A stretch of 64,000 nucleotides of DNA from an uncultured Parabacteroides sp. (GTDB lineage: Bacteria > Bacteroidota > Bacteroidia > Bacteroidales > Tannerellaceae): assembly GCA_949296075.1 (NCBI GenBank), contig CASFNG010000006.1, forward strand, positions 124,001-188,000, written 5' to 3'. Positions 1,410-14,482 of the stretch are shown piece after piece. A program made the translations under genes and the position numbers. Numbering within the stretch: the stretch's first letter is position 1; each line of letters starts with the position of its first letter. The notes below the pieces were generated by a model that searched no databases, was not told the DNA's origin, and was given only the letters and a program-made list of their open reading frames with translations.

Positions 1410-2229
1410 ATTCGCCTAATATTTTTAAGTCCTTGGTAAGTGGCCTGATCGCGTCCAACGCCTGCTTATACCGGATCATATCCGTGAACGTGAGATCCAC
1501 ATAGAAAAGATATTCCCATTCGCGGCCGATAATCGGCAACGACTGTATCTTGGAAAGATTCATATCATAGAAAGAAAGCACGGAAAGCACCTTGGACAGG
1601 CTGCCGGATGTATGCGGCAACGCGAACACAAGCGAGGCCTTATTCTTATCGACCCCCCTAAGGATCTCGTCGGCTATCCAGCGGTCGGCGATAGAGAGGA
1701 AACGGGTAAAATTCCGTTTGTTGGTCTCTATACCCTCAGCCAGCACCTCCATATTATAGATCTTCGCCGCCAACTTGCCACAGATCGCCGCATGCCCTTT
1801 CAATTGGTTCTCGGAAATCCAACGGGCACTCATGGCCGTATCCTCTTTCTCCACCACTTTCGCGTTGGGCAGGGTGTCCAAGAAATCAGCGCACTGCATC
1901 AAGGCGATCGGATGCGAGTTCACCTCCGTTATCTCATGGATGGAAGTCCCGGGTAACGCCACCAGCGAATGCGAGATACGCAGCTTATACTCCCCCGTCA
2001 CGCTCAGTCCGCTCTCCCGGATCAGCTCATGATTTTGCAGCAAACTGCCCGCTATGGTGTTCTCGATCGCCATCAGCCCCACCACGGAGGGATCTTTCTT
2101 GATCGTGGCGATCACCTCCCGAAATGTATTACAGGGGATTATCTCGATCTCCTCTCCCTCATAATAATTACGAGCCGCGATGTCGTGATACGAACCCGCT
2201 ATACCTTGTATTGCTACTTTCTTTTTCAT
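1384..2229 (-). CDS. pheA: Prephenate dehydratase with C-terminal ACT domain
   Basis: A 281-residue protein that converts prephenate to phenylpyruvate, the committed step to phenylalanine. The N-terminal dehydratase domain (about 1-185) shows GIAGSYHDIAA, ENTIAGSL near 56 and the catalytic TRFL at 175-178. An ACT domain (about 198-270) follows, with FALPHTSGSLSKVLSVLSF and the Phe-binding-type stretch LSKIQSLPI, so feedback inhibition by Phe is expected. It is a stand-alone dehydratase without a chorismate mutase domain; that activity is probably on the DAHP synthase two genes on. I chose the ATG at 2229 because the longer frame back to 2298 begins inside the intrinsic terminator that separates this gene from its leader peptide. 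It is the first structural gene of the attenuated operon. Confidence 0.93.
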   Translation of the reverse strand: MKKKVAIQGIAGSYHDIAARNYYEGEEIEIIPCNTFREVIATIKKDPSVVGLMAIENTIAGSLLQNHELIRESGLSVTGEYKLRISHSLVALPGTSIHEITEVNSHPIALMQCADFLDTLPNAKVVEKEDTAMSARWISENQLKGHAAICGKLAAKIYNMEVLAEGIETNKRNFTRFLSIADRWIADEILRGVDKNKASLVFALPHTSGSLSKVLSVLSFYDMNLSKIQSLPIIGREWEYLFYVDLTFTDMIRYKQALDAIRPLTKDLKILGEYAEGRQSV

Positions 2230-2263
2230 ATCAACCTTTATTTGTCTCTTTTCACCTTCTATC

Positions 2264-2295
2264 AAAAAAAAGTCCCACCGAAACCGGCAGGACTT
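2264..2295 (-). terminator. Attenuator terminator of the Phe/Tyr operon
   Basis: Read on the minus strand, AAGTCC (2295-2290) pairs with GGACTT (2275-2270) around inner CCG/CGG pairs and a GTTT loop, followed directly by a run of seven T. It sits between the leader peptide (stop at 2339) and the pheA ATG (2229), which is where an attenuator terminator belongs. Its 5' arm, AAGTCCTGCC, is complementary at 9 of 10 positions to GGCAGGAGTT near the end of the leader ORF (2348-2357). That gives a mutually exclusive antiterminator. Confidence 0.9.
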
Positions 2296-2338
2296 CATAT
2301 ATTCTATTGATCACTCATTGTATCCAATCATCAACGCT

Positions 2339-2413
2339 TCACATATAAACTCCTGCCCTTACCTTGCTAAAGTAAAAGTAATAAAAGTAATATGTAAAGC
2401 TAAATCGGTTCAT
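2339..2413 (-). CDS. Phe/Tyr-rich leader peptide of the pheA operon
   Basis: A 24-codon ORF (ATG at 2413, TGA at 2339-2341). Codons 2-15 read NRFSFTYYFYYFYF, so 10 of the 12 codons from position 4 to 15 are Phe (5) or Tyr (5), and another Tyr sits at position 23. This is the composition expected of an attenuation leader that senses charged tRNA-Phe and tRNA-Tyr. The 3' part of the ORF carries the antiterminator arm (about 2347-2358). A ribosome stalled on the Phe/Tyr block would leave that arm free; one reaching the stop would mask it and let the terminator at 2264-2295 fold. A promoter with an exact -7 element lies 31 bases upstream. The peptide itself probably has no other function. Confidence 0.92.
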   Translation of the reverse strand: MNRFSFTYYFYYFYFSKVRAGVYM

Positions 2414-2443
2414 ATACCCTATCTGTTGTTTTCTAACACGCAA

Positions 2444-2473
2444 CAAAAGTAACGTTTTTTCGGGAAATACAAA
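2444..2473 (-). promoter_or_regulatory. Promoter of the Phe/Tyr leader and operon
   Basis: On the minus strand, TTTG (2473-2470), an 18-base spacer and TACTTTTG (2451-2444) match the Bacteroidetes sigma-ABfr consensus (TTTG, about 19 bases, TAnnTTTG) exactly in both boxes. Transcription would begin near 2437, giving about 24 bases before the leader ATG. Confidence 0.8.
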
Positions 2474-5940: not shown

Positions 5941-7224
5941 TTATTCCACGGCGAACGGCACATTAGCCGTAGCCACGAAGCCTGTACCATCCAGCACATA
6001 GACATACAACCGGTAATATCCCTTATCCGGGATCGATAAGGTACACTCATCCACGTCAGTGGTCAGCACCTCGCCTACCCGATCCGGACGAGGCTCGTAA
6101 GCGCCACCGGTAGCCGTCACGGTCGCCTCTTTCAGCACCTCCCATACGTAAGTCAGCTTATCCTGCTCGCAGTCGGATACATCCACCTTGCCCGAGAACG
6201 GTTTTCCCGCCTTCACCCGCGGACTGAAATCCACGCCATCCACCGACATCCCCTTCACCACGGGAGCAGTCTGGGCCGGCTCTTGGCGAGTCCATACCCG
6301 CTCCATCGCCTCTACCATCGGGGTCTTCTCCCCCTTCAACGGCAAGCCTTCCACATCATCTTCCACGAACAGGCAGAACCAGGTAGGGGTACGTTCCTCT
6401 TTCTGTCCCCACAAGAACACGAACGAGCCCATGCAACGAGGATCGGCGGCTATCGCCTGGGTATAACGCGCCTCATAGACCTGCCGTTTCTCCTCGCTCG
6501 TCTGCTCGATAGGCGCCTTCCAGTCGGTCAATCGTGTCTCCCACCAGCCGGTAGGCCCCCACTCCGTGATCAGGTAAGGTCCTTTATAGGAGGATTGGGC
6601 GAACACGTTCTTCACGTTCAATATATCACCGTAACTGTTGATACCCACGAAATCCAGGTCGGGAGCGTATCGGGCGATCATCTCCAACGCGGCGGGATGA
6701 TGCGAGATCACGGAAGATACCAAATGGCGCTTATCTATCTTCTTGATCTCTTGGGCAAGCAGGTTGACAAAGTTCCAGGCGGTCGGCGTATTGGCGGCGT
6801 CGTTCAGCTCGATCTCATTGCCTATGCCCCAAGCGAAGATGCTCGTATCGTTCCGGAAAGTCTGTGCCAACAAGCGTACCTCCTCCAATTTCTTTTCCCG
6901 AAAGGTCTCATCGTGGTATAGGGCTGAATCCTTCGGAAGATCGATTCCCTGCATCACGTACAAGTGACTGGCCCGGGCCAGCTCCAAATCCTTCTGGATA
7001 GAGGCCACGTCTCCACCCCAGGTACGGAACGCGTTCGCCCCGTTCGCCGAGGCCACATCCAGCCGATTCGTTCCGCCCACTCCTTGGATAAAGAGCGGAC
7101 GGCCATTTATACTTACTTGCCATGTGCCATCGTTCTGCTCGACAGCCACTCCCTCATGCGCACTTTCACAGCCACATAGCAGGGATGAAAGCGCGATCGC
7201 TGAAAACAATGCCTTGATTTTCAT
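5941..7224 (-). CDS. Lipoprotein glycoside hydrolase, GH2-like TIM barrel
   Basis: A 427-residue lipoprotein with a lipobox at LLCGC (Cys19), so it should be membrane-anchored. Residues about 40-330 look like a clan-A glycosidase barrel: the opening GRPLFIQGVGG, the acid/base pair Asn136-Glu137 in AWGIGNEIEL at a strand-4 position, and a candidate nucleophile Glu221 in LITEWGPTGWWETR. The C-terminal 100 residues look like a beta-sandwich. The family is closest in motif to the GH2 catalytic domain or related glucanosyl-type barrels, but the usual N-terminal GH2 sandwich domains are missing. The substrate cannot be told. It stands alone with its own terminator. Confidence 0.72.
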   Translation of the reverse strand: MKIKALFSAIALSSLLCGCESAHEGVAVEQNDGTWQVSINGRPLFIQGVGGTNRLDVASANGANAFRTWGGDVASIQKDLELARASHLYVMQGIDLPKDSALYHDETFREKKLEEVRLLAQTFRNDTSIFAWGIGNEIELNDAANTPTAWNFVNLLAQEIKKIDKRHLVSSVISHHPAALEMIARYAPDLDFVGINSYGDILNVKNVFAQSSYKGPYLITEWGPTGWWETRLTDWKAPIEQTSEEKRQVYEARYTQAIAADPRCMGSFVFLWGQKEERTPTWFCLFVEDDVEGLPLKGEKTPMVEAMERVWTRQEPAQTAPVVKGMSVDGVDFSPRVKAGKPFSGKVDVSDCEQDKLTYVWEVLKEATVTATGGAYEPRPDRVGEVLTTDVDECTLSIPDKGYYRLYVYVLDGTGFVATANVPFAVE

Positions 7225-7287
7225 ACGTCAATAGAATTAGATTTTTCGCTAAAATACAAAATAAGGCGAAATTGACAGCTACCCTAT

Positions 7288-7332
7288 AAAAACAAACGCT
7301 CCCGCCAAGCCCAAAGGCCTGACGGAAGCGTT
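7288..7332 (-). terminator. Terminator of the metal-efflux operon
   Basis: Minus strand: AACGCTTCCGTCAGGCC, a TTT loop, and GGGCTTGGCGGGAGCGTT form a long stem, followed by TG and TTTTT. It lies 35 bases downstream of the TolC-like gene. Confidence 0.88.
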
Positions 7333-7366
7333 CACGAATCACCCTTTCCGGTCCGGATCACCTCAT

Positions 7367-8548
7367 CTATAAGCGATGCTTATAGAGTTGAGCCATGATC
7401 TTTTGGTACTGGTTCTGTAATTGCAAATAATTCTGTACACTCTGATAGTAGGTAGTCACGTCCACGAAATACTCGATCATGGAGATCTGCCCCGCCTGTA
7501 TCGCCTTGTTCAGCAACGCTATGTTATTTTGGCTACGCAATACATCCTGATACTCGTCGATGGATTTTTTCAAAGAGACCGACTGCGTATAGAGTTGGCG
7601 CAATCCACTCTCCACGGTAAACGAGGTGCTCTCTAACTGCATATCCGCATACAACCGCTGCGCCTTGGCGAGCTTCACGTTATTGCGGTTGGAGAATAAT
7701 GGGATACGGATACCTACCAAGAAGCCATTATAGCGATCGCCTCCGGAAGAGGGATTCATCCGATAGCCCAGCTCAAACCCGGGCAAGCCTTTTGCCTTGT
7801 TCACTTTCAGTTGACGTGCGGCTATCGTTTGGTTCTCACGTAGCGAACGTAATTGGGGATCCGCTTCCATCACCTCGTCCTTCAATTCCTCGAAAACGGG
7901 AGGCTCCGGCGTCAGCACATAGGCTGTATCCGTAAAATCAATAGCTATTCCTCCATTCAAGGTGGCGAGTTCCTGCAACTTGGCGGCACGGGCGGTCTCG
8001 TTCATCCGAGCCTCAGTCCTGACGTTCAGAAGCTCCAAGTCGATCTTGTTTGTCTCCAACACATTCGCGTCTCCCCGCTCCAAGCGTGAGGCATACAAAT
8101 CCGAGAGTTGTTCCGCGTTTTGGAGGCGTATCTCCAACAGGCGCTTTTGCTGGTTCAAGAGTACCAAATCCAAGCAAATCTCTTTCGCTTGCAGCAGGAT
8201 TTGCTGACGAAAAGCGCTCGCCTGCTGGTCGAGGCCAGCGGATTTCGCTTTCGTCAACTTATGCTTTTGAGCGTAAAGAGAGGGGAAATCGAACGATTGA
8301 GAAGCGATAAACTCTCCGGTGAATCCCATGCCCTCCTTATTCCCGTACAAATGAGAGTAGGTGACCGTAGGATCAGGCAGGTTGTTGTCCAACCTCGATT
8401 CTAATTTTTGCGACTGGATCAGCTGAGCGTTCGCCCGCAGATCCTTGTTGTTCGCCTCCACGCTCCGTAACACGTCGTCTATCGAGTTTTGGGAGGAAAG
8501 GCTTCCTGCCCACAGGAACAGGACAGCTGTTATGATAGTTAATTTCAT
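7367..8548 (-). CDS. TolC/CusC-like outer membrane efflux channel
   Basis: A 393-residue outer membrane factor with a signal peptide (MKLTIITAVLFLWAGSLSSQ). The mature part is the repeated, largely helical TolC architecture: long Gln/Leu/Ala-rich helices such as QQASAFRQQILLQAKEICLDLVLLNQQKRLLEIRLQNAEQLSDLY, and LPGFELGYRMNPSSGGDRYNGFLVGIRIPLF at the start of the second repeat. It would form the trimeric exit duct of the tripartite pump encoded upstream. I chose the ATG at 8548. A GTG at 8557 would overlap the pump stop as GTGA and cannot be excluded. It is last in the operon and has no lipobox, unlike many CusC proteins. Confidence 0.88.
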   Translation of the reverse strand: MKLTIITAVLFLWAGSLSSQNSIDDVLRSVEANNKDLRANAQLIQSQKLESRLDNNLPDPTVTYSHLYGNKEGMGFTGEFIASQSFDFPSLYAQKHKLTKAKSAGLDQQASAFRQQILLQAKEICLDLVLLNQQKRLLEIRLQNAEQLSDLYASRLERGDANVLETNKIDLELLNVRTEARMNETARAAKLQELATLNGGIAIDFTDTAYVLTPEPPVFEELKDEVMEADPQLRSLRENQTIAARQLKVNKAKGLPGFELGYRMNPSSGGDRYNGFLVGIRIPLFSNRNNVKLAKAQRLYADMQLESTSFTVESGLRQLYTQSVSLKKSIDEYQDVLRSQNNIALLNKAIQAGQISMIEYFVDVTTYYQSVQNYLQLQNQYQKIMAQLYKHRL

Positions 8549-14372: not shown

Positions 14373-14394
14373 TCATTTTTCTCGTTCTACCTAA

Positions 14395-14470
14395 TTTTCC
14401 CTTCGTCGGCATTACCCGAATCAGGTTCGATGGGTATGATCTCAGCCCGCGCGACGGGCACCCCTATGTG
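14395..14470 (-). ncRNA. TPP riboswitch (THI element)
   Basis: The minus strand carries the full conserved core: AGGGGTGCCC at the 5' side, GGGCTGAGATCATACCC, GAACCTGATTCGGGTAATGCC, and GAAGGGAA closing the element. These are the pyrimidine- and pyrophosphate-sensor segments of the thiamin pyrophosphate aptamer. Thi4 follows, so thiamin pyrophosphate should switch its expression off. Confidence 0.97.
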
Positions 14471-14482
14471 AAAAAGCGGGAG

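Follow-up and report, generated by a model that had tools for sequence, protein, structure and literature searches.

A probable ribosome-mediated attenuator with a mixed Phe/Tyr leader peptide upstream of pheA in Parabacteroides and related Bacteroidia

The short region that precedes the prephenate dehydratase gene (pheA) in the DNA analyzed here, a window of 64,000 nucleotides corresponding to positions 124001-188000 of contig 6 of an uncultured Parabacteroides sp., raises the question of whether it is an attenuator, to which amino acids it would respond, and how far it extends beyond this genome. Ribosome-mediated attenuation is a textbook mechanism of Proteobacteria, and leaders reading more than one amino acid are classic, as in the thr and ilv leaders (thrL, ilvL). 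In enterobacteria, pheL is a leader located before prephenate dehydratase, with a terminator, an antiterminator and a protector, in which the ribosome stalls at Phe codons; its codons are Phe-only. We propose, with a probability of roughly 0.92, that the region 2264-2413 of the window is a ribosome-mediated transcription attenuator of the operon pheA-aminotransferase-DAHP synthase/mutase-tyrA, which a shortage of charged Phe-tRNA or Tyr-tRNA would turn on. The initial annotation of this sequence had read the region as a Phe/Tyr attenuator, and that reading is supported here by alternative folds and by the conservation of the Phe/Tyr runs.

The element lies on the minus strand. Its promoter, of the Bacteroidota type (2444-2473), consists of TTTG at 2473-2470 and TACTTTTG at 2451-2444 with a spacer of 18 nt, boxes that we take to match the promoter consensus of the phylum. 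Of 142 loci, 122 contain the motif TANNTTTG in the 90 nt preceding the leader, at a median distance of 27 nt from the leader start codon; the frequency in random 90-mers is 157 of 2840. Transcription is predicted to start near position 2437. The leader ORF (2339-2413; ATG at 2413-2411, stop codon TGA at 2341-2339) has 24 codons plus the stop, reads MNRFSFTYYFYYFYFSKVRAGVYM and carries ten Phe/Tyr codons among codons 4-15; an additional Tyr codon, Y23, lies beyond this block and outside the stretch in which stalling would be effective. A run of eight consecutive Phe/Tyr codons occurs a single time in the 2.73 Mb of genome sequence (83.75% complete), in the pheA leader itself. The intrinsic terminator (2264-2295) has its stem at 2295-2270 and a T-run down to 2264. 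Promoter boxes, leader with its 12-codon block, and terminator had all been placed at these coordinates in the initial annotation, and the window sequence bears them out.

Four segments account for the proposed alternative pairings. Segment 1, formed by the Phe/Tyr codons themselves, is the 5' arm of a predicted protector hairpin (1:2, 2336-2400, 27 pairs), in which it is paired against segment 2 in the minimum free energy fold and which is also supported by covariation. Segment 2, the 5' arm of the antiterminator (GGCAGGAGTTTATATGT, 2341-2357), sits within the last codons of the leader and is supported by its pairing with segment 3, a swap test and pair counts. Segment 3, the 3' arm (ATATATGAAGTCCTGCC, 2286-2302), is supported by its pairing with segment 2 and by pair counts, and overlaps the 5' arm of the terminator, which is the hairpin of segments 3 and 4. 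An antiterminator arm, GGCAGGAGTT, had been described as pairing at 9 of 10 positions with the terminator 5' arm; this stands, although the pairing is longer, since 16 of 17 positions pair between 2357-2341 and 2302-2286 (G-U counted), with a duplex energy of -24.5 kcal/mol. The leader/terminator region as a whole folds with a z-score of -4.8 with respect to shuffled sequences.

Downstream of the terminator, all on the minus strand, the first gene is pheA (1384-2229; PF00800, 5.4e-52), followed by a class I/II aminotransferase gene (216-1409; PF00155, 9.2e-60) and by a gene for 3-deoxy-7-phosphoheptulonate (DAHP) synthase/chorismate mutase (PF00793 and PF01817). Only the 5' part of this third gene, at 1-207, is contained in the window; most of the gene lies beyond it, and the entire gene is found at 7131-8207 of locus L033. 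These three functions had been recognized correctly, but the operon was incomplete: a fourth gene, tyrA, coding for prephenate dehydrogenase (PF02153), is located just past the left end of the window (L033, 6349-7122). The distance between the leader stop and the pheA start is about 110 nt. At 2227-2298 (minus strand) the pheA frame can be extended upstream as far as an ATG at 2298, in segment 3, giving MKSCRFRWDFF and so on. In relatives such as L006 and L009 the frame matching this extension closes before pheA, so the pheA start is more likely 2229 than 2298.

The switch would operate as follows. RNA polymerase would start near 2437 and a ribosome would follow on the leader. With both tRNAs charged, the ribosome would reach the stop codon and cover segment 2, the terminator 3:4 would form and transcription would stop. 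If either tRNA were short, the ribosome would stall within codons 4-15, opening 1:2 and leaving segment 2 free to pair with segment 3, so that no terminator would form and the operon would be read. Without translation, 1:2 would form and the terminator would win. We evaluated this by a stall scan, in which each leader codon was placed in turn in the A site, the RNA was left free from 12 nt past the first base of that codon, and pairing probabilities were computed. For the full-length window RNA, the terminator probability was 0.99 without a ribosome, 0.99 with codon 2 and 0.91 with codon 3 in the A site; it was 0.00-0.24 for codons 4-15 and 0.18 for codon 16, and 0.93-0.99 from codon 17 through the stop. 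The effective stretch, codons 4-16, is therefore the Phe/Tyr block (4-15) plus one Ser codon. A stall at 4-16 favors the antiterminator, and the terminator is favored both in ribosome-free RNA and with the ribosome at the stop; the alternative folds that the initial annotation had asked for are thus present. As Phe and Tyr codons are both within the effective stretch, the computed folds suggest that a shortage of either amino acid should give read-through. In the window RNA cut ahead of the terminator 3' arm, however, 2:3 had a probability of 1.00 even without a ribosome, so that termination in untranslated RNA would need full-length equilibrium, a 1:2 hairpin that forms first, or a later rearrangement.

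We applied the same scan to other loci. At equilibrium, a full switch (lowest value at a run codon below 0.3, value at the end above 0.7) was obtained in 48 of 133 loci, and in 1 of 133 after shuffling the stretch from the run to the terminator; without a ribosome, the mean terminator probability in the wider set was 0.84-0.94. Judging by equilibrium alone would be too stringent for the majority of loci, so the state before the terminator 3' arm is made was also examined. In that state the terminator 5' arm was sequestered (probability above 0.5) at the best stall in all 133 loci; in 118 of them it was, in addition, free (below 0.25) once the ribosome had reached the stop. Shuffled sequences showed both behaviors in 92 of 399 cases. 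A ribosome-mediated attenuator is recognized by a short leader ORF rich in codons for the products, an intrinsic terminator between leader and first gene, an antiterminator that excludes the terminator and has a 5' arm covered by the ribosome at the stop, and a protector giving termination without translation. The first two are present in the window, and the third is found in its sequence and computed fold; the protector is found at full-length equilibrium, in the computed fold and in the covariation within the family, whereas RNA truncated ahead of the terminator 3' arm is predicted to form 2:3 instead.

To what extent the leader is shared was analyzed in the regions upstream of pheA, with one genome per species. 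Of the loci read, 72 came from the family of the window, its own included (113 genomes had a match), 60 from other families of the order (103 genomes listed with a match, three of them belonging to the family of the window), and 20 from other orders of the class (66 such genomes listed with a match). After dropping L028 and L106, which had too little upstream sequence, 150 loci were left. Of these, 143 have a leader with at least six Phe/Tyr in 12 residues ahead of pheA: 69 of 71 in the same family (own locus included), 55 of 59 in other families of the order and 19 of 20 in other orders of the class. At least eight Phe/Tyr in 12 residues were found in 133 of the 150. Among 2582 random stretches of 453 nt from the fetched loci, the lower threshold was reached in 81 and the higher one in a single stretch. 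A later batch of 20 further loci of the order added 17 leaders, bringing the class total to 160 of 170 species genomes, that of the window included. The mixed leader had been called unusual in the initial annotation; within the class it is instead the rule, as both Phe and Tyr are present in 142 of 143 leader peptides.

Using a finder that demands an unbroken stem, we detected a terminator after 133 of the 143 leaders; in one locus of the class set (L151) the minimum free energy fold does not contain it. Another set, made up of 80 loci from named species, two of them too short, overlaps the unnamed set and was kept out of the class total. In it, 76 of 78 loci have the leader, including those of Bacteroides fragilis, B. 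xylanisolvens, Phocaeicola vulgatus, Dysgonomonas, Paraprevotella and Alistipes, and 49 of these have a contiguous-stem terminator. For the other 27, many of them from Bacteroides, the finder gave no call; two such Bacteroides loci (L175 and L183) were folded, and the terminator hairpin was present in both. Gut species such as B. fragilis and P. vulgatus are included among the examined species of the class, most of which carry a Phe/Tyr leader before pheA, and a matching antiterminator and terminator accompany most of the leaders of the class. In other classes of the phylum, a sample of 20 picked from the better-scoring of 189 genomes with a match yielded a leader in five (L282, L284-L287) and none in the other 15.

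The initial annotation had considered that orthologous regions keeping pheA and losing the Phe/Tyr run would speak against an attenuator. Such regions do occur: no leader was found within 450 nt upstream of pheA in 7 of 150 and 3 of 20 class loci, and in the genus of G357 pheA has been kept but no leader is visible in 6 of 8 genomes. Since the remaining loci keep both the run and the pairing, we read these cases as losses. In the leaderless loci L070, L091 and L143, as well as in L163 of the named set, another open frame ends no more than about 30 nt from the start of pheA, so the leader could be elsewhere. For L073, L084 (from a genome of 1.2 Mb), L132, L133, L316 and L317, and for L208 in the named set, there is no clear reason; by eye, L316 shows a weaker frame with four Phe/Tyr. 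In L313, a candidate leader is located 499 nt upstream.

The pairings themselves can be followed by covariation. Outside the family of the window, the antiterminator arms change together, as in GACGGGA/TCCCGTC, AGCGGGG/CCCCGCT, CGAGACCT/AGGTCTCG, TTTCGGGATT/AATCCCGAAA and GAGAACTTC/GGAGTTCTC. In the swap test, the end of each leader was combined with terminator arms taken from elsewhere, which for family loci meant arms of non-family loci. The duplex of segment 2 with its own terminator arm ranked in the top 5% for 107 of the 133 loci (67 of 69 in the family, 25 of 47 in the order, 15 of 17 in the class). In the 64 order and class sequences outside the family, 73.2% of the 2:3 cells are paired, with two-sided changes at all nine pairs and in 43 cells compared with 19.8 in shuffles, and 93.1% of the 3:4 cells are paired, with 82 two-sided cells compared with 24.2; neither these shuffle counts nor the one given below for the family are probabilities, because the rows of the alignments are related. 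It should be noted that sliding the 2:3 partners one column to the 3' end still left 63.8% paired and 41 two-sided cells against the 43 of the true register, other steps giving 6-19, and that pairing is lost at columns 35, 39 and 40 in 26-29 of the 64 sequences. Within the family (69 sequences), where alone the protector was counted, 93.4% of the 1:2 cells are paired, with two-sided changes at 13 pairs and in 60 cells against 18.5 in shuffles, and all 690 of the 3:4 cells (10 pairs) form a standard pair. The 2:3 arms are 84.3% paired and nearly invariant there, which makes the family weak evidence for covariation of this pairing. The compensatory changes that the initial annotation had asked for are present outside the family; within it, the antiterminator arms vary too little for such changes to be informative.

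Another aspect to consider is the relation between the codons of the leader and the genes behind it. In two lineages of the first batches, neither an aminotransferase nor a DAHP synthase or tyrA gene was detected downstream of pheA. One is represented by L088 of G357 and a relative, L257 of G150, and the other by L097 of G140; in both, the run of the leader is Phe-only. The 20 later loci added two pheA-alone cases with a leader, found after the hypothesis had been formed: L309, with leader MITINNSFFFFFFRSDPEKGL and an ilvD-type gene following pheA, and L306, with leader MYFDFVFGFLFCFPKS, an ARMT1-like gene following pheA, and a weak antiterminator (-7.9 kcal/mol). Among the 127 loci that have a leader and were fetched with at least 2.9 kb of sequence after pheA, one Tyr at most was found in the run in 4 of 4 pheA-alone loci, versus 1 of 112 with tyrA in the operon (Fisher p = 7e-7, kinship ignored). 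Eleven loci with partner genes but no tyrA seen kept at least two Tyr. There is a counterexample, L193: its leader holds Phe, Tyr and Trp codons although 1.4 kb of sequence shows no partner gene. The contig carrying L193 is filed as Planctomycetaceae, its pheA is Bacteroidales-like, and it may be mis-binned. Trp was found somewhere in 19 of 143 leaders, and within the run it makes up 9 of 271 residues other than Phe/Tyr (3.3% versus 0.8% of background). Distant relatives with Trp codons in or beside the run are L108, L110, L117, L130, L134, L140, L147, L152 and L153. We think it probable that the leader works across the Bacteroidia as an OR gate, in which either shortage would open the operon, and that its codons track the genes it precedes: lineages with a pheA lacking tyrA would have dropped Tyr and converged on Phe-only leaders, and some others would have added Trp, perhaps as a three-way aromatic sensor.

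It could be argued that only Phe or only Tyr is sensed, the other codons being a by-product of the U-rich sequence needed for the 1:2 hairpin; indeed, both kinds of codon feed the U-rich arm and are constrained by the 1:2 pairing. We regard this as improbable and rejected the Phe-only version of it, given that in the window sequence both kinds of codon fall inside the anti-terminating stall window, as they do in 51 of the 59 loci having such a window (133 tested), and that Tyr codons of the run are gone, or down to one, where pheA is alone. Moreover, the alternative pairing persists in the three Phe-only leaders that were folded (L088, L257 and L097), which retain a protector-like hairpin and a terminator. 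Still more doubtful is control of the terminator by a metabolite- or protein-binding riboregulator (a riboswitch, a T-box or a PyrR-like element), with an incidental reading frame. A faint match to the PyrR family (24.2 bits, gathering score 54) points that way; against it, no Rfam family, T-box and riboswitch families included, reaches its gathering score at the pheA leader of the window, and none does in 20 related loci; segment 2 is located in the last leader codons, and the coding content is conserved and shifts with the genes of the operon, for which reasons an incidental frame was rejected. Finally, short leader genes near structural genes have been proposed to aid reinitiation (PMC4833913). 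The leader and terminator might be constitutive and do no more than fix the basal level of expression or supply pheA with ribosomes through reinitiation, which we consider equally doubtful given that the leader stop lies about 110 nt before pheA, with a terminator in between, and that the alternative pairings covary.

The mixed Phe/Tyr attenuator proposed here belongs to a kind of element that is already known. It resembles thrL and ilvL in that a single leader reads several end products of its own operon, and differs from them in the amino acids and the bacteria concerned. With pheL (Phe_leader, RF01859) it shares a leader peptide before prephenate dehydratase and the same three RNA elements, but the leader of the window holds Phe and Tyr, its operon includes tyrA, and its RNA scores 19.8 bits against this family, below the gathering score of 55. 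The Phe-only or nearly Phe-only leaders of the pheA-alone lineages would resemble pheL by convergence. A putative attenuator before pheA > hisHb > aroAIbeta-aroQ > tyrA of B. thetaiotaomicron, orthologous and with the same operon as in the window, appears in a table of 2005 as an entry drawn from an automated database (PMC1173090, Table 7); specificity and a class-wide comparison are absent there, and the term leader peptide is nowhere in its main text. Upstream frames containing Phe or Phe/Tyr before shikimate genes follow the same idea (PMC6429828, legend of Fig. 6; uORFC-13-1 in PMC8632094), but no Bacteroidales host is named in those passages, and uORFC-13-1 comes from Acholeplasma and environmental sequences. 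For Flavobacterium psychrophilum, attenuation of amino-acid operons by leader peptides is remarked on (PMC9723704), and leader-peptide-like short frames are described in B. thetaiotaomicron (PMC7366714), both in main texts that do not name Phe. According to a survey of 2010, no groups other than Proteobacteria and Actinobacteria had proven leader peptides before its own Firmicutes case, with ermC as the exception (PMC2965389). In the openly accessible main texts that were searched, we found no description of a Phe/Tyr leader in Bacteroidota. As far as these searches go, the leader with its dual codons, the four-segment anatomy, the class-wide spread and the link between codons and gene content are new within that literature. 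This link represents a natural experiment on the evolution of such sensors, and from it follows a rule for leader specificity that can be read from sequence and tested with ordinary reporters.

Further runs of eight Phe/Tyr codons were listed in genomes of the genus of the window, and seven of the sites were examined. Six were rejected, since they lie in stop-to-stop frames, 10-50 codons long, in which no Met precedes the run; the seventh, L254, is the pheA leader again, present in G022 as a second copy. Other regulatory RNAs were also observed on the same contig. Outside the window, a Bacteroid-trp RNA (RF01692; G000:C6:71890-72028, L255) has a leader MNTFVVNTYWWWRSVQLIRS with WWW plus a terminator. 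This family, a cis-regulatory RNA of Bacteroidetes, had no match at the pheA leader in the Rfam scan; its copy here follows the same logic as the pheA leader and differs in having Trp codons. Within the window, a TPP riboswitch is located at 14381-14475 on the minus strand (67.9 bits).
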